From: Pontibacter beigongshangensis
GTDB lineage: Bacteria; Bacteroidota; Bacteroidia; Cytophagales; Hymenobacteraceae
NCBI RefSeq assembly: GCF_014332515.1
Contig: NZ_VFSD01000004.1
Span: 124,001-188,000 of the forward strand
DNA length: 64,000 nt
Reading direction: 5' to 3'
This document shows positions 5,811 through 63,724 of the stretch, piece after piece. The position numbers and the translations under genes were made by a program. The notes under the pieces are model-generated. The model worked only from the letters and a program-made list of their open reading frames with translations, did not search any database and was not told where the DNA came from. The first letter of the stretch is position 1. Each line of letters opens with the position of its first letter.

Positions 5811-6162
5811 GTGTTTTTAAATAAAAGATTGAGCGGATGAGTGATTGAGTGAATAGTTCTAAAGTATATTCTAACTTGCCAACGGGTAGCTTGTTTCCTT
5901 TATTAGTTGCAGTTGATGGTAAAAACTTACAGTGGCTTGCAGAAATTTTTATGGTAAAGCGATCAGTAGCAGCAGAGGCTGCCTGAAATCCCAAATTATT
6001 TGAATGAAAAATGCCCTCCGGATGCTAAATTGCTGCTGCCAGTGGGTTAATCAAGCTGAGCAATTTAGGCACCTGCTTAAATTACTGCAGCAAGAGCTGC
6101 CATATCTTAAGCACGGGGAGCCCGTACATTTAATTCTTATGTAACAATCATTCTTACGAACT
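5811..6162. other. Intergenic region between divergent sigma operon and aldo/keto reductase
   Basis: 352 bases without a convincing gene. It holds the first copy of the dispersed intergenic repeat (5993-6040) and must carry the promoters of both divergent genes, though I see no clear TAnnTTTG element. Confidence 0.6.
5993..6040 (+). repeat. Dispersed intergenic repeat, copy 1
   Basis: Matches the family layout: AAATTATTTGAATGAAAA, then TGCCCTCCGGATGC, then TTGCTGCTGCC. It lies in a divergent intergenic region. Confidence 0.75.
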
Positions 6163-7194
6163 ATGAAATATAATCTCTTAGGCGATACAGGGGTGCTGGT
6201 ATCGGAACTTTGCTTTGGCACCATGACTTTTGGCGGAGAAGGCTACTGGGAAGCCATCGGCAAACAGCAGATCGGCGAGGTAAATGATCTGCTGAAAATC
6301 GCCATCGACGCGGGCATTAACTTCATCGATACGGCCAATGTGTACTCCTACGGGCAATCGGAGCAATTGCTGGGCGAGAGCCTGAAACAAACCGGTATTT
6401 CGCGCAACGAACTCTTTATCGCCACCAAGGTGCGTGGGCGCATGGCCCCCGGCGCCAACAATATCGGCCTTTCCCGCTACCACATCATGCAGTCGGTAAA
6501 CGAGAGTTTGCAACGCCTGCAAATGGACCATATAGACCTGCTGTACGTGCACGGCGTAGACAAGCTGACCTCCGTGGAGCAGGTGGTGCAGACTTTGCAT
6601 GACCTGGTAACGAGCGGAAAAGTGCGCTATGTAGGCATCTGCAACTGGCCCGCCTGGATGGTGATGAAAGCCCTCGGCATTGCCCGCCAGCACGGCTGGC
6701 ACGAGTTTGCGGCCATGCAATATTTCTACGCCATCGCCAACCGCGATTCGGAGCGCGACCTGCTGCCACTGGCCGAAGACCAGCACCTGGCTTTTATGCC
6801 CTGGAGCCCCCTGGCTGGCGGATTCCTGTCAGGCAAATTTACCCGCGACAAGACCAACACCGGCGGCCAGTCAAGGCGCGACAATTTTGATTTCCCGGTT
6901 ATCGACAAAGAAAAAGCCTACGACATTATTGACGTGCTGATCCCGATGGGTGAAAGCCGGGGCGTTTCGGCAGCAGAGGTGGCGCTGGCCTGGGTCCGGC
7001 AGCAGAAAGGCATTACCAGCACCATTATAGGAGCCAAGAACCCGGAGCAGCTGAAGTCCAACATCCACTCCACCACCTTCGACCTCACAACCGAAGAGCT
7101 GCAGCAGCTGGAGGAGGTGAGCAAACCAGCCCCCTCCTACCCCAACTGGATGGTGGAACGCCAGATGCGCGAGCGCTACCCGGACGAGCAGTAG
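6163..7194 (+). CDS. Aldo/keto reductase
   Basis: A 343-residue AKR (TIM-barrel, NADPH-dependent carbonyl reductase). The catalytic tetrad is visible: Asp and Tyr in FIDTANVYSYG, Lys in IATKVRG and His in LLYVHGVD. The phosphate-binding end ITSTIIGAKNPEQLKSNI is typical of AKRs that use NADP(H). Length and motifs fit the large group of YajO/YhdN-like reductases, whose substrates are mostly undefined aldehydes and ketones. It is monocistronic between two repeat-bearing intergenic regions. Confidence 0.93.
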   Translation: MKYNLLGDTGVLVSELCFGTMTFGGEGYWEAIGKQQIGEVNDLLKIAIDAGINFIDTANVYSYGQSEQLLGESLKQTGISRNELFIATKVRGRMAPGANNIGLSRYHIMQSVNESLQRLQMDHIDLLYVHGVDKLTSVEQVVQTLHDLVTSGKVRYVGICNWPAWMVMKALGIARQHGWHEFAAMQYFYAIANRDSERDLLPLAEDQHLAFMPWSPLAGGFLSGKFTRDKTNTGGQSRRDNFDFPVIDKEKAYDIIDVLIPMGESRGVSAAEVALAWVRQQKGITSTIIGAKNPEQLKSNIHSTTFDLTTEELQQLEEVSKPAPSYPNWMVERQMRERYPDEQ

Positions 7195-7297
7195 GCTTTT
7201 CTTAGATTTGGAGATTTGAAAATGATGGAATTTGGAGTTGATTTTGTCGGGCTCGATACAATAGAAATAGATAGCCACAGTACGTTTGTTGCTGCGC

Positions 7298-7340
7298 CTA
7301 TTCTGCACATCCTTTCATCCCGGGAATCCTGATTCAGACA
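7298..7340 (-). repeat. GTCTGAATCAGGATT-type repeat
   Basis: On the minus strand this reads TCTGAATCAGGATTCCCGG followed by GATGAAAGGAT and GCAGAA. It is clearly related to 17279-17320. It abuts the CTG end of dispersed repeat copy 2. Confidence 0.65.
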
Positions 7341-7390
7341 GCAGCAGAAGGCCTGTTGATGCTCGGAGGGGCATTTTTATTTAAATAATT
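7340..7390 (-). repeat. Dispersed intergenic repeat, copy 2
   Basis: Reverse orientation: AATTATTTAAATAAAAATGC, CCCTCCGAGC, then TTCTGCTGCTG. Tandem intergenic position. Confidence 0.75.
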
Positions 7391-7392
7391 GG

Positions 7393-7530
7393 TCAGCATC
7401 AGCATGTACAGAATGAATGGATAGCCAACAAAGGGGTAGCTGCGAACAATTATGGAATATGGAGCACTTTGGTTTAATCATGTAATCCCTTATTCAGAAA
7501 ATTCATTTCTGTTGTACATGCTGATGCTGA
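7393..7530. mobile_element. Possible miniature inverted-repeat element (MITE-like)
   Basis: Two perfect 18-bp inverted ends, TCAGCATCAGCATGTACA at 7393-7410 and its complement at 7513-7530, enclose about 100 bp. The similarity continues inward (GAATGAAT against ATTCATTTC). An octamer TAAATAAT lies just outside both ends (7382-7389 and 7531-7538), like a target duplication, though three bases separate the left copy from the end. There is no coding potential inside. Confidence 0.45.
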
Positions 7531-7655
7531 TAAATAATGCTGTGCCCTCTTAAAGCTTTTAGAGTGCCTTTTTAGTATTCTAGAAGAATCAATTTCGCCT
7601 TGCAGCACTTTTTTGCCGCCTCAGGCGTTATAGCTGCTAACCAAGAAATTTAATT

Positions 7656-8369
7656 ATGCGATACTGGTTAGCAGTGGCAGGTGCAGTGGCGGTGAGCCTG
7701 AGTGCCTGCCATACTCAGAATACTTTAACAGAAACCCAGGCTCAGGATAAAAACGCTTTCACGCTGGCCGATGTCGTGCCCGTGAGCCAGGCACAGACCC
7801 AACAGGAAAAGGAGCAGCAGAAGAGGTTCCGGATCGAAAGCATCAAGCGGTTCTCTTCAGCAAAAGCAGCAGCCACCTATTATGTGGCACAGGCTAAACG
7901 AAACTTTAACGAGCAAAAAAACGACTCTGCCGCCTACCTGTTTGGCCGGGCCTGGCTCCTCGACAGCACCAACAACGAAACTTTCTGGGGCTACGGGCTG
8001 GTATACGGGCAGCAAAAGGCCTACGACAAGGCCCTTTATGTACTTTACCGCGCCCTGGATAAAGACAAGGAAAACTCCCGGCTGTTGACCGATATCGCCA
8101 CCAGCCACCTCGGCAGGTTCTATGACGAAAACAGCCCCGCCGACCTGCTCCAAAGCAAAAAACTGCTGGAAAGCGCCATTGCAGCCTCTCCCGGCTTTGC
8201 CGATGCGTATTATAAACTGGCCATCAGCAGTTATTACCTGCAGGAATATGCCAAAGCCTGGGAGTACCTGCATAAAAGCATTTTGCAGGACAAGGAAATA
8301 GCCGACCCTATCTTTGTGGCGGCACTCCTGCAAAAACAACCTGACCCACAGGGCCTTTACCAGCAGTAA
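7656..8369 (+). CDS. TPR-repeat lipoprotein
   Basis: A 237-residue protein with a lipoprotein signal peptide (hydrophobic core AVAGAVAVSLSAC, lipobox Cys at residue 18) and at least three tetratricopeptide repeats from about residue 80 on (for example AYDKALYVLYRAL and EYAKAWEYLHKSI). It should sit in the envelope as a protein-interaction scaffold. It is homologous to the next gene: both have AWLL, a W-x-(Y/F)-G-L-V segment and a PDP(Q/K)G end. This suggests tandem duplication. The partner is unknown. Confidence 0.82.
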   Translation: MRYWLAVAGAVAVSLSACHTQNTLTETQAQDKNAFTLADVVPVSQAQTQQEKEQQKRFRIESIKRFSSAKAAATYYVAQAKRNFNEQKNDSAAYLFGRAWLLDSTNNETFWGYGLVYGQQKAYDKALYVLYRALDKDKENSRLLTDIATSHLGRFYDENSPADLLQSKKLLESAIAASPGFADAYYKLAISSYYLQEYAKAWEYLHKSILQDKEIADPIFVAALLQKQPDPQGLYQQ

Positions 8370-8460
8370 AACAGAGGATATACTTGATTAATATTTGTAT
8401 ATGCACTACATTTAGGACTTCCGAAATCAGGAAAATAACAACATCCACTTATTCTTTACC

Positions 8461-9168
8461 ATGAGAAAACTATTGATTGCCGTTTTTGCACTCTTTGCAG
8501 CAACCACAACCTCTTTTGCCCAGGAAACTGCCGAGCAGCCAAACCCAAGCGTGCTGCCCATGTTCGGCAACATCCCCAAAACAGAAGCAGAGCAGATCAA
8601 AGACCAGAAATTCCTCTCCAGTTGCGACAACAGCTTTAGCACCCGCCAGGAGGCCAGCCAGTTTTTCATGAACCGTGGCTGGGAGTATTTTAACGAGGGG
8701 CAGGTAGACACGGCCGTATACCGCTTTAACCTGGCCTGGCTCCTGAACCCCAACAATGCCAACACATATTGGGCGTTCGGGCTGGTAACATTCGGCCAGG
8801 GCAAGTTAAGCGAATCGATAGGCTATTATGAGAAGGCGCTGGCAATTGAGCCTAAAAACTCCCTGATGCTTTCTGATATCGCCTCTTCCTACCTGGCGCT
8901 GCACGAGGCCGAACAGAAAAAGAGCAAGAAGAAAAAAACCTTCAAGAAAGTTGTGGAATACACTTCCAAAGCCCTGGAAGCAGACTCATCCAATGCTTTT
9001 GCCTTGTACACCATGTCTAAGGTTAAATACCAGGAGAAGAAGTACGAAGACGCCTGGGCTTACCTACACAAGGGTCGTGAGCAGAACGTAGCCAACATCG
9101 ACTTTGTTTACCTCACCAACCTGATGGCCGAGATGCCAGACCCAAAAGGCTTCTTCAAAAACAATTAA
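8461..9168 (+). CDS. TPR-repeat periplasmic/secreted protein, paralogue of preceding gene
   Basis: A 235-residue protein with a Sec signal peptide (MRKLLIAVFALFAATTTSFA) but no lipobox Cys, followed by TPR motifs (KLSESIGYYEKALAIEP, KKVVEYTSKALEADSSNAFA, KYEDAWAYLHKG) and a Lys-rich loop (KKSKKKKTFKK). It shares its core and its PDPKGF end with the lipoprotein upstream. The likely arrangement is one membrane-anchored and one soluble version of the same scaffold. It is followed by a strong terminator. An AATATTTG at 8390-8397, one mismatch from the Bacteroidetes -7 element, could be its own promoter. Confidence 0.82.
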   Translation: MRKLLIAVFALFAATTTSFAQETAEQPNPSVLPMFGNIPKTEAEQIKDQKFLSSCDNSFSTRQEASQFFMNRGWEYFNEGQVDTAVYRFNLAWLLNPNNANTYWAFGLVTFGQGKLSESIGYYEKALAIEPKNSLMLSDIASSYLALHEAEQKKSKKKKTFKKVVEYTSKALEADSSNAFALYTMSKVKYQEKKYEDAWAYLHKGREQNVANIDFVYLTNLMAEMPDPKGFFKNN

Positions 9169-9187
9169 CTACCCGCTGAGTTTACAG

Positions 9188-9237
9188 CCGACAAAAAAAG
9201 AGACGCACCCCACCGGTAGCGTCTCTTTTTTTGTCGG
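9188..9237 (+). terminator. Intrinsic terminator after TPR gene
   Basis: A perfect 19-bp stem (arms 9188-9206 and 9219-9237, core AGAGACGC/GCGTCTCT) with its T run inside the 3' arm and a 12-base loop. Confidence 0.9.
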
Positions 9238-9458
9238 CACCCGCCCTGCCTTGGAACGGATTTTGTTCGTACTGAGAAGGCTTCACAAAGCGGTCAGCAT
9301 ACATGCCGTAATTGTAAAAAGCAGCAAAACGCTTCTGTTGTTAGAAGGAGGCAGCCTGAAGAAAGTTTCTAATTTTGAATTTAGCAACGTCCTTTAGCAC
9401 TTTACTGTCAACTGCTAAAAAAACATGACTTTCCATTTTCAAACCATTTCAGGATACT

Positions 9459-9466
9459 TATATTTG
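9459..9466 (+). promoter_or_regulatory. Bacteroidetes-type -7 promoter element
   Basis: TATATTTG matches the TAnnTTTG consensus exactly and lies 30 bases before the ATG of the OmpA-family lipoprotein. I do not see a convincing -33 TTTG. Confidence 0.5.
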
Positions 9467-9496
9467 TTTAACTCTTTCGCCTAATCACCATTATTT

Positions 9497-10375
9497 ATGA
9501 AAAACCATTTTTACAGAGCATCCCTGTTTCTATTGGCAGGGTCCCTGTCCTTATCGTCGTGTGTTGTCTCCAAAAAAAAGTATGAAGATCTGCTGTCGCG
9601 CAAAAATGCGCTGGAGGTAGACAAATCGGGCCTGGAAAAGCAGAAGCAGACACTTGAGCAGCAGAAAGCCACTTTGGAGCGTGACAAAGCCAGCCTGGAG
9701 CAGGAGCGCGCTACGCTGGAGCAGCAGAAAAACGAGTACGAGCGCAGCCTGGCGCAGGCCCTGAAGGAAGGAAAAACACTGGGCGAGAACCTGAACATGA
9801 GCAAGACCCAGATCGACCGCCTGAACGCCGACCTGAAAGCCCGTGAGCAGCGCCTGGCCGAGCTGCAGCGCATCCTCGACGAGAAAGACAAAGCCGTAAA
9901 TGCGCTCCGGGCCAAAGTGAGCAGTGCCCTGCTCGGCTTCAACGACAAGGACCTGACCATTAACGTGCGGAACGGCAAGGTGTATGTGTCGCTGGCAGAG
10001 CAGTTGCTGTTCCAGTCCGGCTCCACCAAGGTAGATCCCAAAGGCGTTGACGCTCTTCGTAAGCTCGCCGCTGTGCTGAAAGAGCAGCAGGATGTGAATG
10101 TGCTGGTAGAAGGCCATACTGACGACGTGCCAATAGCCAGAGGAACGGTAGGCATGCAGGACAACTGGGACCTGAGCGTGCTCCGGGCTACGGAGATTAC
10201 CCGCATTTTGGCCAACGCCGGCGTCGACCCGACCCGTGTAACGCCTTCTGGCCGCTCTCTGTACGTGCCTCTGGATGCAACCAAAACAAGGGAAGCCCGC
10301 CAGAAAAACCGCCGCACCGAGATTATCCTCACTCCTAAACTAGATGAACTCTTCCAGATACTGGAAACGACCTGA
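9497..10375 (+). CDS. OmpA-family lipoprotein with coiled coil
   Basis: A 292-residue envelope protein. It has a lipoprotein signal peptide (LFLLAGSLSLSSC) and a long coiled coil at about residues 35-145 with repeated LE-x-(Q/D)-K-x-x-LE heptads. A C-terminal OmpA domain (about 165-285) carries the peptidoglycan-binding pattern VEGHTDDVPI, NWDLSVLRATEI and RQKNRRTEI. It should tether the outer membrane to the cell wall through diaminopimelate binding. Many relatives carry the same KKKYEDL start. A TAnnTTTG promoter lies 30 bases upstream, and two large hairpins follow the gene. Confidence 0.92.
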   Translation: MKNHFYRASLFLLAGSLSLSSCVVSKKKYEDLLSRKNALEVDKSGLEKQKQTLEQQKATLERDKASLEQERATLEQQKNEYERSLAQALKEGKTLGENLNMSKTQIDRLNADLKAREQRLAELQRILDEKDKAVNALRAKVSSALLGFNDKDLTINVRNGKVYVSLAEQLLFQSGSTKVDPKGVDALRKLAAVLKEQQDVNVLVEGHTDDVPIARGTVGMQDNWDLSVLRATEITRILANAGVDPTRVTPSGRSLYVPLDATKTREARQKNRRTEIILTPKLDELFQILETT

Positions 10376-10390
10376 TCATTTATTAATGAC

Positions 10391-11508: not shown

Positions 11509-12183
11509 TATTATTATAAATTAATTTGTCTGTTACGCTGCTACTAATTCAAAACTATTTTCCACCTTTCTGTTTCTTCCGCATAAGGCCGCATACGCTG
11601 CTGCCATAGCGCCCTCAATACTCTTCATGCCGTTCAAACGCCATGGTTTGATCAGTTGGAGAAGAAGAAAAAGGTTGATAGATAAATTATTCTAATCAAA
11701 AAGGCCCTCCTGAGATCTATTTTGCTGCTGCTGCTCTCCATACATCCTGCAGGCAAATCCAATTTCTGCAAACATTCTGCTTTCATATTTGTATAAAGGT
11801 GAGACTTTAATCTTACAGCCTGGCGCAGGCCAACGAAATGCGCCAGGCCATGTAACTGTAAGAGGAAGATGCCACCTTCCGTTTTAAAGCAACCAGAACC
11901 AAAGAGTATGCTCGTAAAGAAACTAAATCTTATCTACAAAGTAAAAGCCCTTTTTGCCTATCCGGCTTCACCTACAATCTTCAGCACTGACAAATAAAAT
12001 AAATGTCTCAAAATGATGTTATAACTTCATTAATTGACCCAAACGATGGAAACCGGATAAGGCTTTTCTTAACCTACGGCGGCACTCATTCCGTAAGAAG
12101 TAGATTAAATCAAAGAAAGAAAGCCCCATGTAACGATTTTACTTATTAAGTTTACGGTCGGATAGCACCATACACACTAGCAA
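11509..12183. other. Intergenic region between rluF and the mla operon
   Basis: 675 bases between divergent genes. It holds dispersed repeat copy 3 (11684-11735) and a 10-bp GCCTGGCGCA hairpin (11818-11848). Two short ORFs (11869-11997, 42 codons, and 12003-12149, 48 codons) are too small and unsupported to call. Confidence 0.5.
11684..11735 (+). repeat. Dispersed intergenic repeat, copy 3
   Basis: AAATTATTCTAATCAAAAA, GGCCCTCCTGAGATC, then TTTGCTGCTGCTGCTC. It lies between divergent genes. Confidence 0.8.
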
Positions 12184-14990: not shown

Positions 14991-15048
14991 GAATTACCCT
15001 AATGAAAAAGGCCCTCCAGAGGCTGACAGCCTGCCGGAAGGCCTTCTC
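14991..15048 (+). repeat. Dispersed intergenic repeat, copy 4 (degenerate, terminator-like)
   Basis: GAATTACCCTAATGAAAAA then GGCCCTCCAGAGGC. The CTG end is replaced by a sequence that makes an AAGGCC/GGCCTT hairpin. It lies between convergent genes and may terminate the HIT gene. Confidence 0.6.
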
Positions 15049-17220: not shown

Positions 17221-17276
17221 AAATTATTTAAATAAAAAAGGCCTTCCCGAGGCGCTGCTGCTGCTGCTGCTGCTGT
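17221..17276 (+). repeat. Dispersed intergenic repeat, copy 5
   Basis: AAATTATTTAAATAAAAAA, GGCCTTCCCGAGGC, then a pure (GCT)n tract of about six units, the longest in the family here. Confidence 0.82.
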
Positions 17277-17278
17277 TT

Positions 17279-17366
17279 TGTCAGAATCAGGATTCTCAGG
17301 ATGAAAGGATTTACAGGAAGTATTTGTCAGAATCAAATTTCCAGAATGAAAGAATGTTCAGAATAT
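17279..17366 (+). repeat. Two tandem GTCAGAATCA-type repeats
   Basis: The first unit (17279-17320) reads GTCAGAATCAGGATTCTCAG then GATGAAAGGAT. The second (17325-17366) reads GTCAGAATCAAATTTCCAGA then ATGAAAGAATG. Both are homologous to 7298-7340. Confidence 0.65.
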
Positions 17367-23138: not shown

Positions 23139-24080
23139 ATGAGGATCGCCTTAGACGCTATGGGCGGCGATTATGCACCTGAGGCTATCATTAAGGGTGC
23201 AATACTCGCTGCAGAGCAGCTTGAGAAAGATGATGAAATCCTGCTTATCGGGCAGGAGGAAATTGTTCGTTCGCTGTTAACAGAATTAGGATATACCGGC
23301 AGTAGTATAAAGGTTGTAAACGCCACTCAGGTTATCGGGATGGCGGAGCACCCTACCAAGGCTCTTTCCCAGAAAACGGATTCCAGTATTGCCGTTGGCT
23401 ATGGTCTGTTAAAAGCCCAGCAGGCGGATGCTTTCTGCAGCGCAGGAAACACGGGCGCCATGCTGGTGGGCGCCATGTTCAGCGTAAAATCAATTGAAGG
23501 AATAATCAGGCCTGCCATTGCCGGTTTCGCGCCGAAATTAAGCGGCGGCTTTGGCGTGATCCTGGATGTTGGGGCTAATGTGGATTGTAAGCCGGAGGTG
23601 CTGGAGCAATTCGGCGAGACAGGCTCCATCTACGCCAAGTACGTGCTTGGCATAGAAAACCCGAAGGTTGGCCTGATGAACCTGGGAGAGGAAGAGAGCA
23701 AAGGGACAGTAAACATTCAGGCTGCCCACCAGCGCCTGAAAAACAACCCAAACATTAACTTCATCGGAAACCTGGAGGGGCGCGATCTTTTTAACGACAA
23801 GGCCGATGTGATTGTTTGCGACGGTTATACCGGCAACATCATCATCAAAATGGCAGAGTCAATTTACGAGATCATGGCCGAAAAAAATATCAAGGATCCT
23901 TTCTTTGATAATTTTAACTACGAGGCTGCTGGTGGCAGCCCCATCTTAGGCATTAACGGCAACGCGGTTATCGGTCACGGTGTGTCGAGCCCGCTGGCGG
24001 TGTGCAACATGGTGGTGCTGGCACAGAAGATGGTTTCATCCAAAATTTCAGAACGGTTCCGTAAGAATTACAGCGCCTAG
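23139..24080 (+). CDS. plsX: Phosphate acyltransferase PlsX
   Basis: A 313-residue PlsX, with [13 protein letters not shown] at the start and the family blocks [20 protein letters not shown] and [12 protein letters not shown]. It makes acyl-phosphate from acyl-ACP for PlsY in phospholipid synthesis, as a peripheral membrane enzyme. It lies downstream of rpmF, and a terminator follows before fabH, so fabH can also be transcribed separately. Confidence 0.96.
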
Positions 24081-24113
24081 CCTGTTTGCCTGGCCTCCAC
24101 CCCATCGAATACT

Positions 24114-24176
24114 ACCTGGTATAAACAAAACAGCAACTCTTTTTAAGGTTCTGTCAGTTTATACCAGGTTTTTTTT
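24114..24176 (+). terminator. Terminator after plsX
   Basis: A perfect 13-bp stem (ACCTGGTATAAAC, 24114-24126, with 24157-24169) and an unusually long 30-base loop, followed by a T run. Confidence 0.8.
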
Positions 24177-24221
24177 ATTAATTTGCCCGCTCAAACTTTT
24201 ACCCTTAGAAACTATTATAAC

Positions 24222-25220
24222 ATGAGTAAAATTACTGCCGCTATTACAGGCGTAAGTGGCTACGCTCCCGAGTATGTGCTTACCAACAAAGAACTGGAGA
24301 CCTTGGTGGAAACCAACGACGAATGGATCGTGAGCCGCACGGGAATTAAGGAAAGGCGCATCCTGAAGGGCGAAAACCAGGGCACTTCTCAGATTGCCAT
24401 TCCTGCAGTAAAAGAATTACTTAAAAAGACCAATACCAGGCCAGAGGAAGTAGACTTGCTGATCTGTGCCACCACCACCCCCGACATGGTTTTCCCGGCC
24501 ACGGCCAACCTGATTACGGCAGAAGTGGGAGCTGTAAACGCTTTCGGATACGACCTGCAGGCCGCCTGCTCCGGCTTCCTGTTCGCGCTGGCTACAGGGT
24601 CCAAATTCATTGAATCGGGCCAGTACAAGAAAGTGATTGTGGTAGGTGCCGATAAAATGTCGGCCATAGTAGATTATACAGACCGCACCACCTGCATTAT
24701 TTTTGGAGATGGCGGTGGCGCCGTTATGCTGGAACCTAATACCGAAGGCTATGGTGTGTTGGACCAGGTCCTGAAATCAGACGGAGCAGGCGCTCCTTAC
24801 CTGCATATGAAAGCAGGTGGCAGCCGCAAACCAGCCACCATGGAAACAGTAGCAGCCCGCGAACACTTTGCTTACCAGGAAGGCCAGACGGTGTTTAAGT
24901 TCGCCGTAAAAAACATGGCCGACGTATCGGCTGAGGTGATGGAGCGCAACAACCTGACCTCGGAAGATGTTGCCTGGCTCGTGCCCCACCAGGCTAACAA
25001 GCGCATTATAGAGGCCACTGCCAACCGCATGGGCGTTTCCAGCGAGAAGGTGATGCTCAACATCCAGAAATACGGCAACACCACCAGCGGCACCATCCCG
25101 CTTTGCCTCTGGGAGTATGAGCCACAATTAAAGAAAGGCGACAACCTGATTCTGGCAGCCTTTGGCGGCGGCTTTACCTGGGGTTCCATTTACCTGAAGT
25201 GGGCCTACGATCCGAAATAG
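24222..25220 (+). CDS. fabH: 3-oxoacyl-ACP synthase III FabH
   Basis: A 332-residue KAS III. The catalytic triad is Cys116 ([12 protein letters not shown]), the His in [12 protein letters not shown] and the Asn in [11 protein letters not shown]. It condenses acetyl-CoA or a branched primer with malonyl-ACP to start fatty acid synthesis. ATG 24222 is preferred to the upstream TTG at 24183, which lies inside the plsX terminator region. TTAATTTG at 24177-24184, one mismatch from the -7 consensus, may be its own promoter. The DUF177-rpmF-plsX-fabH order is conserved. Confidence 0.95.
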
Positions 25221-25265: not shown

Positions 25266-25278
25266 GTGCCTTACCAGG

Positions 25279-25325
25279 CAGCGGCAGCAGAAGCCTCGGA
25301 GGGGGCAAAACCATTAGAATAATTT
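25279..25325 (-). repeat. Dispersed intergenic repeat, copy 6
   Basis: On the minus strand: AAATTATTCTAATGG, TTTTGCCCCCTCCGAGGC, then TTCTGCTGCCGCTGC. Confidence 0.8.
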
Positions 25326-25459: not shown

Positions 25460-25495
25460 AAATTATTTAAATGAAAATGGCCCTCCGGAGCCATC
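25460..25495 (+). repeat. Dispersed intergenic repeat, copy 7 (lacks CTG end)
   Basis: AAATTATTTAAATGAAAAT then GGCCCTCCGGAGCC. The CTG run is missing. Confidence 0.7.
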
Positions 25496-25719
25496 AATGC
25501 CCTTAAGTGGCATGGGGGATAGCGCGCGGTTATTTTTAAGTAACAGCCCCCAAATGGGGCTCGCACACCTGGTGTTTTGTCAAATTAACATTAGACATGA
25601 TGGCAGCTAGGCTTTCTGGCAGCTTTGCAAGCATTAAACCATTCTAATAATCGAATTGGTGGAGGAGTATTGGTCATTATATCGGCTGCCTACAAAAAAA
25701 CAAAAACAGGCATAAAAAC

Positions 25720-30693: not shown

Positions 30694-30748
30694 GGAGCGG
30701 CAGAGGTTCAGAAAAGCTGGAAAGGCCAATTTTCATTAGAATAATTGC
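30694..30748 (-). repeat. Dispersed intergenic repeat, copy 8 (degenerate)
   Basis: On the minus strand: GCAATTATTCTAATGAAAA, then a diverged core (TTGGCCTTTCCAGC) and CCTCTGCCGCTCC. Confidence 0.6.
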
Positions 30749-32128: not shown

Positions 32129-32320
32129 AGACACAGGATTTTTAAGTAACAGATCGGCGGTACCACTTCCTGAAAGGTAAGAGCAAGAAGAGCTAAAACA
32201 TAAGTAATAAAACCATAAGGCTGGCAATTATTTAAATAAAAACAGCCCTCCGGCGCCTTTTGCTGCCGTTGCCACAGTTCTAGTAAATTGCATAAGGTGC
32301 TGCGTCTTATATCCTGTGTC
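32129..32320. repeat. Inverted GACACAGGAT units flanking repeat copy 9
   Basis: GACACAGGAT at 32130-32139 and its complement at 32311-32320, each next to an AGACGC/GCGTCT word, lie on either side of the dispersed repeat in this gap. Confidence 0.4.
32225..32273 (+). repeat. Dispersed intergenic repeat, copy 9
   Basis: CAATTATTTAAATAAAAA, CAGCCCTCCGGCGCC, then TTTTGCTGCCGTTGCC. It lies between two same-strand genes. Confidence 0.75.
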
Positions 32321-35752: not shown

Positions 35753-35810
35753 AATTATTCTAATGAAAAATGCCCTCCAGAGCCTTAACCTTTATTGGCG
35801 CTACTGCTCT
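35753..35810 (+). repeat. Dispersed intergenic repeat, copy 10
   Basis: AATTATTCTAATGAAAAA, TGCCCTCCAGAGCC, then a diverged CTG end (GGCGCTACTGCTC). Confidence 0.75.
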
Positions 35811-40653: not shown

Positions 40654-40711
40654 CAATTATTCTAAGTAGAAATGCCCTCAGGAGCACTTTGCTCTTGCTG
40701 CGGCTGCTACT
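40654..40711 (+). repeat. Dispersed intergenic repeat, copy 11
   Basis: CAATTATTCTAAGTAGAAA, TGCCCTCAGGAGC, then GCTCTTGCTGCGGCTGCTAC. Confidence 0.75.
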
Positions 40712-40883: not shown

Positions 40884-40930
40884 AAATTATTCTAATGAAA
40901 ACAGACCTCCAGAGCTTTCTGCTGCTGCTA
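40884..40930 (+). repeat. Dispersed intergenic repeat, copy 12
   Basis: AAATTATTCTAATGAAAA, CAGACCTCCAGAGC, then TTTCTGCTGCTGCTA. A TTGTCTGAATCAGAATT unit follows five bases later. Confidence 0.8.
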
Positions 40931-40935
40931 CAACA

Positions 40936-41074
40936 TTGTCTGAATCAGAATTTTAACAATATCTCAAAAACTGAAAAAGTGTAGCACCTGAAGTTCAGGA
41001 GCATATTTTTCAGATGCGGTTCAGCAATAAATATTCTGCTTATTCTAAAATTCTGTCAATTCTGATTCAGACAA
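40936..41074. repeat. Inverted pair of TTGTCTGAATCAGAATT units
   Basis: Perfect 17-bp copies at 40936-40952 and, inverted, at 41058-41074, 105 bp apart. The unit is related to the GTCTGAATCAGGATT repeats at 7298 and 17279. Confidence 0.6.
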
Positions 41075-42052: not shown

Positions 42053-42424
42053 ACCCGCAATTTAAGTCTTGCCTGCTTAAAATCAAGAAGCGGGTGAAGG
42101 AATGATTTCGGGGGCTTTGCCAAATTAGAAATTCAAAATTAGAAATTATGGCAACTGTGCTTTCTGTCAGCGTTACAGACATTGTAATTTTCTACAATTC
42201 AATCTGAAGGCCCACGGGTGCATCGGTTGGTAAGAAACTGGGTAATTAACGTCCAGATGATAAAATACCGGCAATCAGCTCTAAGTTCAGGATCGCTTAC
42301 AAGAGTAGCAGCATGAGAAGCAGCAGAGCTTCAGGAGGGGCAAATTCATTAGAATAATTTAGCGGGCAGGACTTGCGTGGTGACCTTACGTCTGCTCTGA
42401 AGCATCCCTTACGACAGGCGCATC
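42053..42424. other. Intergenic region with repeat copy 13
   Basis: 372 bases. An AATTAGAAATTCAAAATTAG tract (42122-42142) contains an exact minus-strand TAATTTTG (42134-42141) that could be the PanE promoter, with an 80-base leader. Copy 13 of the repeat is at 42306-42360. There is no gene. Confidence 0.55.
42306..42360 (-). repeat. Dispersed intergenic repeat, copy 13
   Basis: On the minus strand: AAATTATTCTAATGAA, TTTGCCCCTCCTGAAGC, then TCTGCTGCTTC and further CTGCTAC. Confidence 0.78.
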
Positions 42425-46600: not shown

Positions 46601-46656
46601 GCAGTGGCAGCAGCAGCAGCAAAAGGCTCGGGAGGCCTGGTTTCATTCAAATAATT
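46601..46656 (-). repeat. Dispersed intergenic repeat, copy 14
   Basis: On the minus strand: AATTATTTGAATGAAA, CCAGGCCTCCCGAGCC, then TTTTGCTGCTGCTGCTGCC. Confidence 0.8.
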
Positions 46657-52579: not shown

Positions 52580-52921
52580 TTGGCAGATGCTAGCTATTAG
52601 ATGTAAGACTATTGAGGTGGAAGGTTTAACCAGGGCATTTCATTTATTGCCTGTTTCCTCCCTTTGCACTATCAAAAAGCAATTTATACTTATCCGTTGA
52701 CAATTCCGTACGGGTAGTTCTTAATCTGAATTATTTGAATGAAAAAGGGCCTCGGGAGGACTCTGCTGCTGCTGCTCTTGTTTAGATTATAGATGTTAGA
52801 TGCTGGATTTTAGACTTTCTTGTCTAAATCATGAAGGCGACGATTGCCTGATTAAGTGCCTACTTCAGACACTCGCAGGAGCTGCGCACGCTGGGAGGTC
52901 ATGGCTGCTTCTCTTATGTTT
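52580..52921. other. Intergenic region with repeat copy 15
   Basis: 342 bases between two minus-strand genes. Repeat copy 15 is at 52728-52778. No promoter or gene is recognised. Confidence 0.6.
52728..52778 (+). repeat. Dispersed intergenic repeat, copy 15
   Basis: GAATTATTTGAATGAAAAA, GGGCCTCGGGAGGA, then CTCTGCTGCTGCTGCTC. Confidence 0.8.
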
Positions 52922-54216: not shown

Positions 54217-54262
54217 AAATTATTCTAATGAAAAAGCCCCTCCGGAGGCGCTGCCACTGCTG
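54217..54262 (+). repeat. Dispersed intergenic repeat, copy 16
   Basis: AAATTATTCTAATGAAAAA, GCCCCTCCGGAGGC, then GCTGCCACTGCTG. Closest to the family consensus. Confidence 0.82.
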
Positions 54263-54507
54263 ATGGTCTGCCGTGGCCGGGATGCTTTTTCCGGAAACCC
54301 GTTCACGGTTCCTGGCACAAAGGTATAGGATGCTCCTTTAGCACAAATACTTCTGCCATAATTTTTTATGGGAGCGGATGTTGAAAGGACTTGCACAGAA
54401 TAGGAGTAGCCGCTGAGAATATAGCAGCCATCAAAGCAAAAAACTGGTAAAAAAGGGCCTTCATTGTTGTTTTCGGGAGCAGGATAGCCAAAAGATATGA
54501 GGTAGAG

Positions 54508-56100: not shown

Positions 56101-56149
56101 AAATTATTCTAATGTAAACTGACCTCAAGAGGCTTTTCTGCTGCTGCTC
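56101..56149 (+). repeat. Dispersed intergenic repeat, copy 17
   Basis: AAATTATTCTAATGTAAAC, TGACCTCAAGAGGC, then TTTTCTGCTGCTGCTC. Confidence 0.8.
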
Positions 56150-56217
56150 AGGAAGAGGTTACACTTTGTTGACGCGAGCACTTGCCTTTTTCCGAAGATC
56201 TGTACAACGACAGGACC

Positions 56218-58003: not shown

Positions 58004-61000
58004 ATGAAGAAAAACTTACATTATGGTAGGTACGTGTTCTGGGCCATGGCCTCGCTGGGGCTAAGCTCGAATGTAGTGAAGGCTGAGAATGGACAGCCTC
58101 TGAACCTGCCTGTTGTTGAATTTTCAGCAACAGCGGGGCGCTTCTCAGAAGTTGCCCTGGTAAAAGATGCTGCGCAGACGATAACCGTATCGGGCCGTGT
58201 GGTGGACAACACGGGCGAAGGATTGCCAGGTGTAAGCGTGGTAGTAAAAGGAACAACCATCGGCGCCAACACTGATATCGACGGACGTTACAGCTTAACG
58301 GTGCCTAATGGCAATGCTACGCTTGTCTTCTCTTATATCGGTTTTGTATCGCAAGAGGTCGCCCTGAACAATCGGGCTGTGCTTGACGTGACCATGGCAA
58401 CCGACACCAAAACGCTCGAAGAAGTAGTGGTGGTTGGGTACGGCACGCAGAAGAAAAGCGATTTGACAGGTGCCATCACCAGTGTGTCTTCCGCGGTAAT
58501 TGAGGAACGGCCGGTGCAGAACGTGCTGCAGGCCCTGCAGGGTAGAGCTGCCGGTGTAAACGTTTCTACAAACGTCCGTCCGGGTGAGACGCCTAGTGTG
58601 AGCATACGTGGTAACCGGTCACTTACAGCAGATAATGGGCCGCTTTATGTAGTGGACGGCATCCCGATCGTAGCTGCGCTGGGTGTTACCTCCTTCTCTA
58701 TAAATGATATACACCCGAACGACATCGCCTCTGTGGAAGTGCTGAAGGATGCCTCGGCCACGGCTATTTACGGATCGCGAGGCGCGAACGGCGTTATCCT
58801 GATCACCACCAAAAAGGGTACTGCCGGTAAAGTTTCCGTTAACTATAACCATACTACCTCCCTCGATTCCTATAAGTCGCTAACCGATTGGATGGACGGT
58901 GGCCAGTATATCGACCGGTGGCGCGAATCGCTGATGTATGGCCGCAATTACCAGCTAACTACTAACACAGACCGGACGCAGGCGCCTACCATCTGGTATC
59001 CGGATCCGTTTATAGACAGGGAGAAAATGAACCTGGGCGTAGACCAGAGATCATTAAATAATGTGTGGGCAGGTTATGAATGGGAAGAATACGGAGTAAC
59101 CCCTAGAACACGACCTACCACACCGGAAGAACAAGCCATGGGCTGGCCCGCGCAGGTGCCGGTTTACAACTCCCAGAACATCCCAACCTTCGATTGGAGA
59201 GATGCCGCAACCCGCACAGGGGTAACCCAGAACCACCAGCTCTCCCTTTCTTCTGGTACCGAAACCTCCAGGGTCTATCTTTCGCTTGGGTATTACGACC
59301 AGAAAGGCGTACAGCGCGACCAGGATTTTAAACGTTTCAACGTGAACCTGAATGGCGATATCTCTCCTAAAAAATGGCTTACGCTGGGCACCTCTGTAAT
59401 GGGTTCTTTTTCGTTGCAGAACTACGGCGTAAACCCACCCAATACGAGCAACACGGGCTCTAAAGACCTTTTCTCAAGAGCCAACGACCAGTTTCCGTTT
59501 GCTTTCCCCAGAGACGAGAATGGCGATTTTATCAGGAATACCGGTCCTAACATTAACATCTGGAACCCCCTGGTGGACATAGACCAGACTAAAAACGAAA
59601 GACGCTCCTCAGCCATTATGGCCAATATGTTTACGGAGCTGAAGTTTACGCCCTGGCTGAAGTACCGCCTGAACTTTGGTGCGCAGGTGCGCAACTTCAG
59701 AAACGGAGCCTGGACAGGTCCTGAAGCTACTAGCCACTTGACTAACCGGCCCAACACTGCCGGCTATAACCGTGAGGAGAACTTTTCGTGGGTAGCGGAG
59801 AATCTGCTTTTCGTTGATAAGACCTTTGCCGATATCCATACCATTGGCGTAACCCTGCTCCAGTCTCAGCAAGCCTCCAGAAGAGAAAACATCGGTACTA
59901 ACGTGTCTAGCACCATTATCCCTTTAAGTTTGTGGTACGACTTGGGCTCTAACACGGTAGGTCGCCCGGATGGCTATGGCACCGGCTTCACCGAAAACAC
60001 GCTGATGTCATGGATGGGTCGTATAAACTATTCCCTCATGGACAGGTACCTGCTTACAGCTTCCGGCCGTTACGATGGATCATCTGTGCTGGCTCCAGGC
60101 AACAAATGGGACTTCTTCCCTTCATTTGCCTTTGCCTGGAAAATGCAAGAAGAAAGCTTTATGGAGAACTTAACCTGGATCTCTGAACTTAAGCCGCGTA
60201 TCGGCTATGGTGTAACCGGTAACTCTTCTGTGAACCCCTATACCTCCTCCGGTCCTCTAAGCAGAAACCCTTATTCATTTGGTTCCGTGGCTGGTATTGG
60301 TTATTTGCCTCAGTTAGTGCAGAACCCCAACCTGAGCTGGGAAAAAACAGCTCAATCTAACATAGGTGTGGATTTTGGTGTACTGAACAACCGTATTACA
60401 GGTTCCGTTGAACTATACGAGGCCAGAACCTCAGACCTTATCATGGAGAGATCGCTGCCTGCTGTAACTGGTTATGTTAACAAATTCGAGAACATCGGTA
60501 AAACTCGTAACAGAGGTTTGGAACTAACCCTTTCAACAGTAAATATTGAAACAAAAGACTTTACCTGGAGCACTGATATAAACTTCTCCAGAAACAGAGA
60601 AGAAATTGTGGAGTTGATAAATGGTAAAGAAGACATGCTGGCAAATACCTGGTTTATCGGGTACCCGGTAAGTGGTGTTTACCGCCATTACGATAATGCT
60701 GGCATCTGGCAGAACACCCCGGAAGACCTTGCGGAGATGGCAAAGTTTAATGCTAACCGGCACAATTTCTACCCCGGCTCTATTAAAATTGTGGATCAAA
60801 ACGGAGACTATAGGATAGACGGTGAAGATTATGTGATCAGGGGTCACAATCGTCCGAAATGGACAGGTGGTTTAAACACTAACTTCCGTTATAAAAATCT
60901 GACTTTGCAATCATTTATTTACGCAAGAGTTGGCCAGACTTATTTTGGAGGTTACCCTAACTCTTATGGTGGTGTATTTCCTAATGGCCGGGTTGAAAAC

Positions 61001-61378
61001 GATGTATGGACATTCCAGAACCCTGGGGGGCGCTGGCCAATGCCCTATAACGGAACACTCGCATATGACAACTTTACGCCAGCCATGCAATTCCACAGTG
61101 GTTCTTTCGTAACTGTCAGAAATATTTCACTTTCCTATGATTTCCCGCAAACCATGTTGAGCAGGTTCTTCCTGAACAACCTGCAGCTGAACGTGCAGGT
61201 GCTGAACCCCTTCATTTTTGGGGGCGATATCGTGCAGATGGGTCTGAACCCGGACGACGATACGAACTGGGGAAGACAATCGCAGGCGAACAGCAACAGC
61301 ACTTCTCCGCTGGGTGGTACCAACAACAACACCATTCTGCAGCAAAGTGTAGTGTTTGGCTTAAGGGTTGGTTTCTAA
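58004..61378 (+). CDS. SusC/RagA-family TonB-dependent receptor, pair 2
   Basis: A 1124-residue SusC-like transporter. It has a signal peptide (to about residue 27) and a carboxypeptidase-like domain (about 60-130, VSGRVVDNTGEGLPGVSVVVKG). TLEEVVVVGYGTQKKSDLTG and a plug with SIRGNRSLTADNGPLYVVDG and ASATAIYGSRGANGVILIT follow, then a barrel ending in Phe. With the adjoining susD2 it forms the import complex of a polysaccharide locus. The esterase 0.5 kb upstream points to rhamnogalacturonan-type pectin as the ligand. Confidence 0.95.
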   Translation: MKKNLHYGRYVFWAMASLGLSSNVVKAENGQPLNLPVVEFSATAGRFSEVALVKDAAQTITVSGRVVDNTGEGLPGVSVVVKGTTIGANTDIDGRYSLTVPNGNATLVFSYIGFVSQEVALNNRAVLDVTMATDTKTLEEVVVVGYGTQKKSDLTGAITSVSSAVIEERPVQNVLQALQGRAAGVNVSTNVRPGETPSVSIRGNRSLTADNGPLYVVDGIPIVAALGVTSFSINDIHPNDIASVEVLKDASATAIYGSRGANGVILITTKKGTAGKVSVNYNHTTSLDSYKSLTDWMDGGQYIDRWRESLMYGRNYQLTTNTDRTQAPTIWYPDPFIDREKMNLGVDQRSLNNVWAGYEWEEYGVTPRTRPTTPEEQAMGWPAQVPVYNSQNIPTFDWRDAATRTGVTQNHQLSLSSGTETSRVYLSLGYYDQKGVQRDQDFKRFNVNLNGDISPKKWLTLGTSVMGSFSLQNYGVNPPNTSNTGSKDLFSRANDQFPFAFPRDENGDFIRNTGPNINIWNPLVDIDQTKNERRSSAIMANMFTELKFTPWLKYRLNFGAQVRNFRNGAWTGPEATSHLTNRPNTAGYNREENFSWVAENLLFVDKTFADIHTIGVTLLQSQQASRRENIGTNVSSTIIPLSLWYDLGSNTVGRPDGYGTGFTENTLMSWMGRINYSLMDRYLLTASGRYDGSSVLAPGNKWDFFPSFAFAWKMQEESFMENLTWISELKPRIGYGVTGNSSVNPYTSSGPLSRNPYSFGSVAGIGYLPQLVQNPNLSWEKTAQSNIGVDFGVLNNRITGSVELYEARTSDLIMERSLPAVTGYVNKFENIGKTRNRGLELTLSTVNIETKDFTWSTDINFSRNREEIVELINGKEDMLANTWFIGYPVSGVYRHYDNAGIWQNTPEDLAEMAKFNANRHNFYPGSIKIVDQNGDYRIDGEDYVIRGHNRPKWTGGLNTNFRYKNLTLQSFIYARVGQTYFGGYPNSYGGVFPNGRVENDVWTFQNPGGRWPMPYNGTLAYDNFTPAMQFHSGSFVTVRNISLSYDFPQTMLSRFFLNNLQLNVQVLNPFIFGGDIVQMGLNPDDDTNWGRQSQANSNSTSPLGGTNNNTILQQSVVFGLRVGF

Positions 61379-61405
61379 TTCATGTTTTTAAAAAAGATTC
61401 TTCTT

Positions 61406-63580
61406 ATGAAAAAATATATTGCAATACTTCTGCTAGCCACTTCCACCTTATCGTGTAAGGACTTTCTGGAAGAAGAGCAGGTGGCGAACCTGACTCAGAA
61501 CTATTATAACAACGAGAACGGGCTCGACGCTTTAATAAAAGGCCTCTATGTGTATGCCCGGGTAAAGCATGAGTGGGATGCCAACGGCGCCAGGTTAATT
61601 GAGCCTGAAACAGATGCCTACCGCACCGCAAACGTAGGTTGGGCCCGGATGGGGGTAGCCGAATTCGGCTCCGATGTGAGCAACATTGCCGCTAACGTGA
61701 ACAACTTCCTCGGTGCTTCTAACTCCAACTACGCTCCCATGGGTGCCTACCCGCACATCAACAACTGTAATATTGCCCTCGACATAATCGACAATATTCA
61801 GCCTGGCCGGTTCGGCACTGACGAAGCTTACAGAAACACCAGAAAAGCCGAGATCCTGTTTCTGCGCTCCTGGGCTTATTATCTTATTTCGAACCAGCTC
61901 GGCGATGTGCCGCTGCTGCTGGAGCCGAAAAGAGAAGATAATGGCATATACTTCTATCCGAAAACCAAACTGGAGGATATATATAAGCAGATAATCTCCG
62001 ACATGACCTTCGCTTACCAGCACCTGCCAACCACTGCGTCAGAAAGAGGACGTGTAACCAAATGGGCAGCCGGTCATTTTCTGGCGAAGCTATACCTGAA
62101 CCGTGCCCAGGCTGCCGGCTTCCAGAACAGCTCCGAAGAACATTTGCGGATGCTCTTTAAAGGCAATGTAGCCACCGACCTCGATTCTGTTATCACCGTG
62201 GCATCTGAGGTTATATCTGGTACTGGCGGCGCACTTGCCCCTGATTACTGGACATTGTTTAACCCGGCTGTTTCTGAATCAAACCCGCACTCCGAAGTTT
62301 TATGGTCGGCGCAGTTCGACGAGAATACAGGGCTCAATGGCCGTTTCGGCGGTAACAGGTCTGTTAACTACCACGTAGGCGACTACACCTTCCAATCGGG
62401 GGTAACACGCTCCATGGCATATGGCCGGCCGTTTGGCACGTTTAAACCTACCGACTGGGGCTACGACAATTTCCGCGATAAAGTGAACGACTCGCGCTAT
62501 TACAAAACCTTTCAGTACGAGTATGTAAGTAACATGCCAACTTTACAGGCAAGCAGTTCATTTGTCTGGGATGCAAAATCTGCGGCTTGGTGGAATGAAA
62601 ATAAACCTGAAGGGGCTCCAACTGTTTCACACCTTGCCCCACCCCCTTTAAACAAAAGAATATTACCGAATAGCAGAGCTATTATTTATCTGGAGAACCA
62701 GAAAGAAGAAGCCCTGGACTCAGCGATGGTGATGAGCATGCCGTTTCAGTTTATGGTGCGCTGGGTTAAGTCAGCTAAAACCGGTCGCCACTACTATCGC
62801 CTGTTTATAGATGGCACTGACATGGGCCTTGCCACCAACCGCCAGGCACCTTATCTATCGTCTAAAAAATATGTGGACCCTACAAGAGGTGGCAGCGCCA
62901 GCGAAGCGAACTTCAACAGTGAGGCAGGTACCCGCGATGCCATTCTCATGCGCCTGGCAGAAACCTACATGATTAGAGCAGAAGCCTACGGACGTAAAGG
63001 GCTGTACAGCATGGCTATTGCCGACATTAACGTGCTGCGCCAGCGTGCGGCCTACAAGGCTGGTGAGAGCCGCCCTGCTGTGCTGGCCGAGTTTGAGCCT
63101 CAGCGAACCACCCTCGATCCGGCAGAACTGGTGGCTCCTTACGCTGCCACTACCAACTCTTTCGAGAAAATAATGGTGACAGAAAACCACTTCACACCAG
63201 GTACTCTTGAAGCTGAAAGAGAAGATTATATCCCGACCGTGAACACGAAAGAGGATATGTTTATTCACTTTATCTACAACGAGAAAGCCCGTGAGTTTTT
63301 GTCAGAAGGCATCGCCTGGGAAGATCAGCACAATGCCGGCATTCTGTATGAGCGCCTGGTGTACCTCAACCAGATGGCATCTGACAGAATGGGTCTGTGG
63401 CCTACCGCATTTAACACCGCCAGCGGCAACGGCCAGGACGGCAACGGCAAAGGCCTGGTGCAGAAGCACTATACCTTCCGTGTGTGGCCAAACGCCTACC
63501 TGGTGCAGCTTACTGACGAGAACGGCAATGCGCTGGATGCTGCAGCAAGAGCCGCCTATCAGAACCCCGGATATAATTAA
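61406..63580 (+). CDS. SusD/RagB-family lipoprotein, pair 2 (long form)
   Basis: A 724-residue SusD-like lipoprotein (ATG 61406, MKKYIAILLLATSTLSCKDF, lipobox Cys17; the upstream ATG 61382 adds eight residues). It is much longer than SusD1 because of extra inserts between residues 250 and 500. The TPR-like part RKAEILFLRSWAYYLISNQLGDVP and the SusD end FIYNEKAREFLSEGIAWED are clear. It lies 28 bases after susC2. The inserts probably shape a larger or branched-ligand binding site. Confidence 0.94.
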   Translation: MKKYIAILLLATSTLSCKDFLEEEQVANLTQNYYNNENGLDALIKGLYVYARVKHEWDANGARLIEPETDAYRTANVGWARMGVAEFGSDVSNIAANVNNFLGASNSNYAPMGAYPHINNCNIALDIIDNIQPGRFGTDEAYRNTRKAEILFLRSWAYYLISNQLGDVPLLLEPKREDNGIYFYPKTKLEDIYKQIISDMTFAYQHLPTTASERGRVTKWAAGHFLAKLYLNRAQAAGFQNSSEEHLRMLFKGNVATDLDSVITVASEVISGTGGALAPDYWTLFNPAVSESNPHSEVLWSAQFDENTGLNGRFGGNRSVNYHVGDYTFQSGVTRSMAYGRPFGTFKPTDWGYDNFRDKVNDSRYYKTFQYEYVSNMPTLQASSSFVWDAKSAAWWNENKPEGAPTVSHLAPPPLNKRILPNSRAIIYLENQKEEALDSAMVMSMPFQFMVRWVKSAKTGRHYYRLFIDGTDMGLATNRQAPYLSSKKYVDPTRGGSASEANFNSEAGTRDAILMRLAETYMIRAEAYGRKGLYSMAIADINVLRQRAAYKAGESRPAVLAEFEPQRTTLDPAELVAPYAATTNSFEKIMVTENHFTPGTLEAEREDYIPTVNTKEDMFIHFIYNEKAREFLSEGIAWEDQHNAGILYERLVYLNQMASDRMGLWPTAFNTASGNGQDGNGKGLVQKHYTFRVWPNAYLVQLTDENGNALDAAARAAYQNPGYN

Positions 63581-63615
63581 GACGGTTAAGAAATTTGATT
63601 TTTAGCCAATTATTA

Positions 63616-63649
63616 AAAGAGGCTGCTCCTTAGAGCAGCCTCTTTTTTT
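63616..63649 (+). terminator. Terminator after susD2
   Basis: Perfect 13-bp stem AAAGAGGCTGCTC with its complement, a four-base loop and a long T run. Confidence 0.95.
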
Positions 63650-63668
63650 TTGTTCAAGATGGCTATGC

Positions 63669-63724
63669 CGGAGCAACGGCCGGAGCAGCAGAGGCTCCGG
63701 AAGGGCTTTTTCATTAGAATAATT
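63669..63724 (-). repeat. Dispersed intergenic repeat, copy 18
   Basis: On the minus strand: AATTATTCTAATGAAAAA, GCCCTTCCGGAGCC, then TCTGCTGCTCCGGCCGTTGC. Confidence 0.8.

Follow-up and report, generated by a model that had tools for sequence, protein, structure and literature searches.

Within a 64,000-nucleotide stretch of the genome of Pontibacter beigongshangensis (hereafter the window; positions 124001-188000 of contig C34 in the 5.75-Mb genome that we refer to as G000), we find 18 copies of a short intergenic element that belong to a set of roughly 1,700 copies per genome, a set that is present in 2 of 50 genomes of the genus, those of P. beigongshangensis and one sister species (G068). 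Dispersed repeats in bacteria are usually viewed as mobile debris, the places of which differ between species. In sampled gaps between orthologous genes, this set largely keeps the places and orientations of its copies, though their flanks have been erased, and the spelling of the copies has moved together, so that each genome has its own form with few intermediates. Such a pattern is what the co-evolution of a reader protein and its sites looks like, and we give an approximately even probability (~0.5) to the reading that the copies are recognition sites at the level of DNA, inherited vertically and co-evolving with a protein that reads their sequence. In the scheme that we propose, a ready-made element of ~30-58 bp would have been copied through the intergenic space of the ancestor shared by G000 and G068, and its copies would act as DNA, in the form of sequence-specific sites, and not as RNA or protein. 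After the split, most places would have been inherited together with their orientation, as is seen in the sampled gaps, and nearly all copies would have come to be spelled in each genome's own way, as they are found today. A putative reader protein of the lineage would hold the fixed columns of the element constant, and its preference would have changed between the two species. Because the sites lie mainly away from promoters, a role in boundaries, the nucleoid or topology is our first guess. A broader proposal is more tentative, with somewhat less than even odds, namely that the two genomes contain ~1,700 vertically inherited intergenic address sites that were re-spelled in concert between sister species and that serve a system of self-recognition or chromosome organization, with dialects like those of uptake sequences in sites that are longer and confined to gaps. 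The two sister genomes and their two dialects make the co-evolution of reader and sites directly testable, and the sharp motif, used as bait, offers a way to a lineage-specific architectural, termination or uptake protein.

Anatomy and genomic setting of the element

An initial annotation of the window had listed 18 copies of an element with three parts, and all 18 are present where it had placed them. When scanned against AATTATTNNAATNAAAA with a limit of 3 mismatches, 12 copies show no mismatch, two show 1 and three show 2; the copy at 25324, on the minus strand, lies beyond that limit with 4 mismatches, all within the AAAA part. Against a 30-column consensus, the copy at 25324 shows 7 mismatches and the other 17 show 0-5. 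As had been claimed, every copy in the window lies outside genes (by home-made gene calls), both orientations occur, and the gaps that hold them are divergent, convergent and tandem. Of the three parts described, the GCTGCTGCTG run proved to be the least constant. The constant part of the element occupies positions 1-30, where an A/T block of 17 bp is separated from the core CCYTCCRGAG by a spacer that is short and variable. Its left edge is sharp: in-register similarity between G000 copies starts at most 10 nt from position 1 in 2,448 of 2,764 pairs, and mostly stops between positions 30 and 59. The G000 consensus reads AATTATT-YN-AAT-V-AAAA-NNS-CCYTCC-R-GAG, and is followed by a stretch rich in T and, in many copies, by a tail rich in CTG. 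A loose CTG-like piece was counted, with no background computed, in 264 of 369 G000 copies; a strict CTG run of three triplets is present in 34% of G000 copies, in 1% of cases upstream of copies and in 2% of copies in G068. Columns 8 and 9 are coupled, in that C may be followed by any base whereas T is nearly always followed by a purine. The core CTCCGGAG is a short palindrome. Columns 7-9 follow a codon-like rule in both genomes (mostly TCN, TTR or GCT, rarely TTY). One copy, at C2:1371-1434 of G000 (L141), is a full palindrome (AATTATTCAGATGAAAAAGCCCTTCC and its complement) and perhaps an ancestral form; palindromic copies of the element, as judged by eye, are isolated cases.

The A/T block AATTATTYNAATNAAAA is matched exactly 1,003 times in the 5.75 Mb of G000 (503 + 500 by strand), compared with 1 + 0 matches for the reversed control. 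With up to 6 mismatches allowed, 1.338 Mb of G000 contains 399 copies (2 in the reversed sequence), which extrapolates to ~1,716 in the genome; in G068, the 211 copies in 0.773 Mb extrapolate to ~1,693. Copies with at least 7 mismatches (at least 6 in some tables) are excluded from the counts. A genome-wide search for hundreds of extragenic copies had been suggested as a check, and the 1,003 exact blocks, together with the location of 351 of 355 G000 copies outside predicted genes, answer it in the affirmative. Overlap with a predicted gene by at least half was seen for 4 of 355 copies in G000 and 2 of 204 in G068, considering copies with up to 5 mismatches and genes called on both sides by a home-made hexamer gene caller that truncates some starts. 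By a cruder test, 27 of 390 G000 copies and 6 of 207 G068 copies lie in any ATG open reading frame of at least 100 aa, such frames covering 81% and 80% of the sequence, respectively.

Copies turn common in convergent gaps from a length of ~100 nt, in tandem gaps from ~200 nt and in divergent gaps from ~300 nt; the element thus avoids the promoter side of genes. Divergent gaps hold 56 of 351 G000 copies. In tandem gaps the copies tend to be oriented against the genes (140 of 215 in G000, p = 1e-5; 91 of 136 in G068, p = 1e-4). A signal for the direction of replication was considered and rejected, since orientation has no clear dependence on GC skew in either genome: plus and minus copies number 112 and 71 where the skew is negative and 54 and 40 where it is positive in G000, and 23 and 28 and 33 and 23, respectively, in G068.

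Among the 49 other Pontibacter genomes searched, the sister genome G068 is the sole other carrier, with 795 exact A/T blocks, and the other 48 have 0-2 each. G068 is also the nearest relative found, with 83% DNA identity over 2.1 kb of the window (23139-25220) as compared to 74-78% for the other 48. A longer pattern of the element, searched for in 390 genomes of the order (a draw without G068), matched G000 alone, at 754 places. A comparable element was not found in three other Pontibacter genomes, of which G064 gave no word at threshold, and G003 and G069 gave different short words.

Shared places and species-specific spelling

The fetched parts of the two genomes (1.338 Mb of G000 and 0.773 Mb of G068) contain 121 orthologs in 90 adjacent pairs; 69 of the gaps measure at least 60 nt in G000 and G068 alike, and 67 are left once the two on a contig with conjugative-element genes are dropped. 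Among the 69 gaps, the element is in both genomes in 22, in neither in 41, in G000 only in 4 and in G068 only in 2; from gap type and length, 13.2 shared gaps would be expected, and 22 was reached in 0 of 20,000 simulations. The corresponding figures for the 67 gaps are 22 with the element in both genomes, 39 with it in neither and 6 with it in one (Fisher p = 1e-11). The differences in presence and absence at orthologous gaps that the initial annotation had proposed as support for its repeat family do exist, but are few, 6 of 67 against the 22 shared. Across the same 67 gaps, the median difference in gap length between G000 and G068 is 7 nt when the element is absent and 124.5 nt when the gap is occupied. 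On the G068 contig with conjugative-element genes (L251), two orthologous gaps are equal in length to those at ~274-276 kb of G000 C1 (494/494 and 310/310), which suggests a recent transfer.

In all 12 gaps that hold one copy per genome the orientation is the same (P ~6e-4), and the median offset from the gene end is 19 nt as compared to a random expectation of 49.5 (P ~0.01). Among the 10 co-occupied gaps with multiple copies, all copies agree in six and one opposite copy is present in four. In the 12 one-copy pairs, the fixed A/T columns are 93% identical and the upstream flank is 27% identical, which is the random level. An earlier set of 8 pairs gave an identity of 0.762 in columns 1-30 compared with 0.718 in random cross-genome copies (p ~0.05), with flanks that were not detectably more alike than in random copies. 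In these 8 pairs the free columns hardly exceeded the likeness of random copies. It follows that flanks and free columns have been randomized and the fixed columns kept.

The two genomes spell the element differently. Counted genome-wide and together with the A/T block, the core CCTYCNRAAG has 693 occurrences in G068 as compared to 16 in G000, and for the core CCYTCNRGAG the counts are 587 in G000 and 51 in G068. The pair T23/A28 marks 95% of the copies in G068 as compared to 3% in G000, C23/G28 is present in 72% of G000 copies and in none of G068, and AAGGGT at +46 to +65 in 68% of G068 copies and 1% of G000 copies; G068 copies are characterized by a CAAGGGT end and those of G000 often by a CTG-rich tail. 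This split between dialects holds at co-occupied gaps, where 27 of 27 G068 copies and 0 of 31 G000 copies have T23/A28 and a looser AAGG[GC] near the 3' end is present in 26 of 27 and 3 of 31, respectively, and therefore reflects change at shared sites and not a swap of one set of sites for another.

Decay, transposase genes and alternative explanations

Few copies of the element are in a state of partial decay. Sites at 7, 8 and 9 mismatches number 20, 60 and 207 in G000 against 7, 46 and 204 in the reversed control, and 17, 44 and 168 in G068 against 6, 23 and 129; since these counts are near those of the control, the genomes lack the large graveyard expected of an old neutral burst. No excess of inverted doublets was found among neighbors up to 400 bp apart, which are near the chance ratio of 2:1:1 (47 tandem, 16 tail-to-tail and 15 head-to-head in G000; 26, 10 and 13 in G068). 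A larger parent transposon was rejected as a candidate, as in-register pairs reach 80 nt in only 93 of 2,764 cases in G000 and 91 of 1,320 in G068, and some of the pairs of at least 80 nt are segmental duplicates or nested palindromes. The column frequencies of both genomes contain no second end complementary to the first. Miniature inverted-repeat transposable elements (MITEs) are defined by their terminal inverted repeats; the element resembles a MITE, or a solo terminal inverted repeat, in being short and dispersed, in its sharp left end and in the one full palindromic copy, and differs from it in that the consensus has no paired ends, no parent element was found and decayed copies are few.

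Several 20-kb stretches, picked as the lowest of 67 and 40 in copies for the gaps that they contain (p-values uncorrected, some low stretches being without annotation), are devoid of the element. They include a prophage in G000 (L049, C1:360001-380000; 0 copies against 6.6 expected; terminase, dUTPase and ERF among 10 proteins scanned) and, in G068, a stretch with conjugative-transposon genes (TraJ, TraM, ArdC; 0 against 5.3), one in which three transposase-type proteins of nine scanned lie beside kinases and a hydrolase (0 against 6.6), one with TIR and DUF4365 proteins (0 against 4.6), a ribosomal-protein cluster (0 against 4.2) and a urease cluster (0 against 3.6). Chosen as copy-poor, these stretches illustrate and do not prove the point, but they fit an old inherited set better than rapid current spread.

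The initial annotation had offered two possibilities, a binding site for an abundant protein or an element like the repetitive extragenic palindromes (REPs) that a transposase moves, and had named a RAYT transposase flanked by full copies as a sign of the former. Y1_Tnp genes are encoded by 43 of the 50 genus genomes, and therefore do not track the element. At the 8 of 11 Y1_Tnp loci that were read with their flanks (6 of 6 in G000 and 2 of 5 in G068), such flanking is not the rule: inspection by eye places other palindromes next to most of the genes (e.g., CGCGAGCTTTCAGCTCG and AGGTGTAGTTGAAAACTACACCT; L190-L195, L310 and C113 of G068), and the element comes within ~350 nt of three of the eight, ~30 nt upstream of the L191 gene, as an inverted pair upstream of L193 and ~60 nt downstream of L310, which we count as background. 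The 19.3 kb that surround the six G000 genes contain 5 copies, roughly the genome-wide density. Column frequencies from position -5 to 60 (G000) or 70 (G068) reveal no GTAG or CGTC tag, one of which REPs have at one end according to PMC3733652. As described in other papers on these families, inverted doublets are over-represented as REPINs (PMC3116915), REPIN populations reportedly last for millions of years (PMC8049555), and a Bacteroidetes TnpAREP subclass, 2.6, has atypical structures with dispersed copies beside TnpA genes (PMC6006769); the sections available of these four papers treat RAYT-tied families, without positional conservation combined with concerted change. The element resembles REPs and REPINs in that its short intergenic copies run to hundreds or thousands, occur in either orientation and form a family that differs between related genomes; with subclass 2.6 it shares the phylum and the dispersed copies of structures that lie beside TnpA genes. 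Unlike REPs and REPINs, it has neither the tag nor an excess of inverted doublets, and it shares places and orientations across species with a genome-wide re-spelling; unlike subclass 2.6, the TnpA genes here are mostly accompanied by palindromes of their own that differ from the element. A RAYT-mobilized REP was rejected on the evidence of the Y1_Tnp distribution and of the palindromes at most of the eight loci. Of the two possibilities, the transposase is not supported where RAYTs are concerned and the binding site fits better, because places and orientations are shared, fixed columns are kept amid randomized flanks and free columns, and the consensus has shifted genome-wide.

Mobility in a more general form, namely a non-autonomous element of the REP or MITE type that a transposase moves in trans and whose old copies are overwritten by conversion or re-insertion to give each species its spelling at shared places, is the likeliest of the rival readings, though in our judgment doubtful. 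Copying must at one time have multiplied the set, and the sharp left edge, the unequal copy numbers in orthologous gaps, the resemblance of the palindromic copy at C2:1371-1434 to two inverted ends, and the copies near three of eight Y1_Tnp genes, with an inverted pair at one of them, are what mobility would leave; places and orientations are nevertheless largely kept, decayed copies are few, neighbors show no inverted-doublet excess, the Y1_Tnp genes are also found in most element-free genomes of the genus and, at the loci read, are mostly accompanied by other palindromes, and the prophage and the conjugative stretch (picked as depleted) have no copies. The Pasteurellaceae uptake signal sequence (USS) and the Neisseriaceae DNA uptake sequence (DUS) are known sequences of DNA uptake, and an uptake-like self mark, in which a receptor prefers fragments with the motif, recombination of such fragments keeps the sites in place and a change of receptor lets the whole set drift to another dialect, would account for ~1,700 copies in both genomes, the balance between strands, the species dialects, the inherited places and the absence from some stretches with mobile genes. 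PMC3630211 describes Neisseriaceae dialects with ~1,900-5,900 copies in each genome, and uptake sequences that are also common inside coding sequence. A further point for this rival is the 9-mer AGGTATAGC, which reaches 1,365-2,768 copies in 12 of 50 Pontibacter genomes. The DUS is the nearest counterpart of the element's dialects, which it resembles in the order of its copy number, in its balance between strands and in its differences between species. The element is, however, at least 30 bp long, has a sharp left edge, is almost purely intergenic (the frequency inside coding sequence that an uptake sequence would have is not seen), and is biased in orientation near genes; its partial copies are few, where point mutation and drive should leave many. 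We regard an uptake mark as unlikely. Searches of the openly licensed literature for Pontibacter intergenic repeats or DNA uptake, Hymenobacter repetitive extragenic sequences, and Bacteroidetes uptake signals in connection with natural competence gave no report, and those for Bacteroidetes intergenic interspersed repeats and for concerted evolution at orthologous positions gave just seemingly unrelated titles.

A terminator or other 3'-end signal, read against the forward strand of the element (GGAGGG, then TTTTCATTAGAATAATT), is improbable to a still greater degree. It would explain the ~2:1 orientation against upstream genes, the location of 40 of 140 against-gene copies at most 50 nt from a stop codon as compared to 10 of 75 for the others (G000), and the rarity of copies in short divergent gaps, and the sequence would allow a stem of 3 bp closed by a YGGA loop. 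On the other side, the opposite orientation is taken by 75 of the 215 copies in tandem gaps, divergent gaps contain 56 of 351 copies, the A/T block at the far end is the part that varies least, and the hairpin columns show no consistent covariation at axis sums 50-54 in 364 G000 and 207 G068 copies. The best covarying pair, 23-28, has a z of 2.8 in G000 and changes from C-G to T-A between the species, and may have a small structural role. An RNA hairpin is disfavored by these five alignment axes and by Rfam, which had no match in the window at gathering scores. With an orientation against genes of just ~2:1 and hairpin columns of this kind, the earlier statement that the copies are not simply promoters or terminators finds support. 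That the copies are what is left of a coding sequence (N-Y-[SLA]-N-[EQK]-[KN]-x-P-P-E) may be all but discounted: the rule in columns 7-9 is as such a remnant would have it, and in none of 117 copies is the codon directly upstream a stop, but the AAT, TAT, AAT and VAA codons have frozen third positions, stops occur two codons upstream in 10 of the 117 and three codons upstream in 9, and there is no conserved start codon. The remnant was rejected on the frozen third positions and the stops in upstream frames.

The reading that we prefer, of inherited DNA sites that co-evolve with a reader, has points that weigh against it as well. The reader protein is hypothetical. A site that is blind to direction does not predict the ~2:1 orientation against genes in tandem gaps (140 v 75 in G000 and 91 v 45 in G068). 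The T23/A28 and C23/G28 forms could be a compensatory base pair between the species, and the G000 element is ill defined in its 3' tail. There is a modest excess of sites at 7-9 mismatches that is larger in G068, the scanned consensus being nearer to the G000 dialect. Four of the 10 multi-copy gaps contain an opposite copy and copy numbers differ in 6, and therefore copying or loss continued after the split. Shared occupancy might result in part from insertion preferences beyond gap type and length, and the orthologous gaps are a sample defined by home-made gene calls.

Copies in the window and other iterated words

In the following, mismatches are to the 30-column consensus. Divergent gaps of the window contain the copies at 5994-6043 (plus strand, 1 mismatch), 11685-11734 (plus, 1 mismatch; the orthologous G068 gap has no copy), 30697-30746 (minus, 5 mismatches) and 56102-56151 (plus, 3 mismatches). 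The copies in convergent gaps are those at 14992-15041 (plus, 2 mismatches), which has a G068 counterpart in the same place and orientation, at 35753-35802 (plus, 0 mismatches), which likewise has a counterpart in G068 with the same place and orientation (79 vs 77 nt from the gene end), at 46607-46656 (minus, 3 mismatches), and the head-to-head copies at 25275-25324 (minus, 7 mismatches; the first 12 positions fit and the AAAA part does not) and 25461-25510 (plus, 0 mismatches). Tandem gaps hold the copies at 7341-7390 (minus, 3 mismatches), 17222-17271 (plus, 1 mismatch; with a long CTG tail and a G068 copy in the same gap and orientation), 32226-32275 (plus, 1 mismatch; no copy in the orthologous G068 gap), 40655-40704 (plus, 4 mismatches), 40885-40934 (plus, 1 mismatch; in the same gap as the preceding one), 42310-42359 (minus, 4 mismatches), 52729-52778 (plus, 2 mismatches) and 54218-54267 (plus, 0 mismatches). 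The last copy, at 63675-63724 (minus, 0 mismatches), is past the last gene called in the window.

Other iterated words were encountered in the genus. The 9-mer AGGTATAGC is strand-balanced in the 12 genomes in which it is abundant, which include G003, and has at most 297 copies in the others; its reversed word has ~19-50 per genome. In G003 it is found in genes as well as gaps (L273-L279), and it is possibly a word of the uptake-sequence or HIP1 type; the matches listed in a literature search for it seem unrelated. G069 (L266-L272) has another iterated word, CCATATATAAA with its relatives, that is enriched in gaps. In the window itself, a second family of intergenic repeats, of the TGTCTGAATCAGGATT type, adjoins some copies of the element, at 7303-7340, 17279-17316 and 41032-41073.

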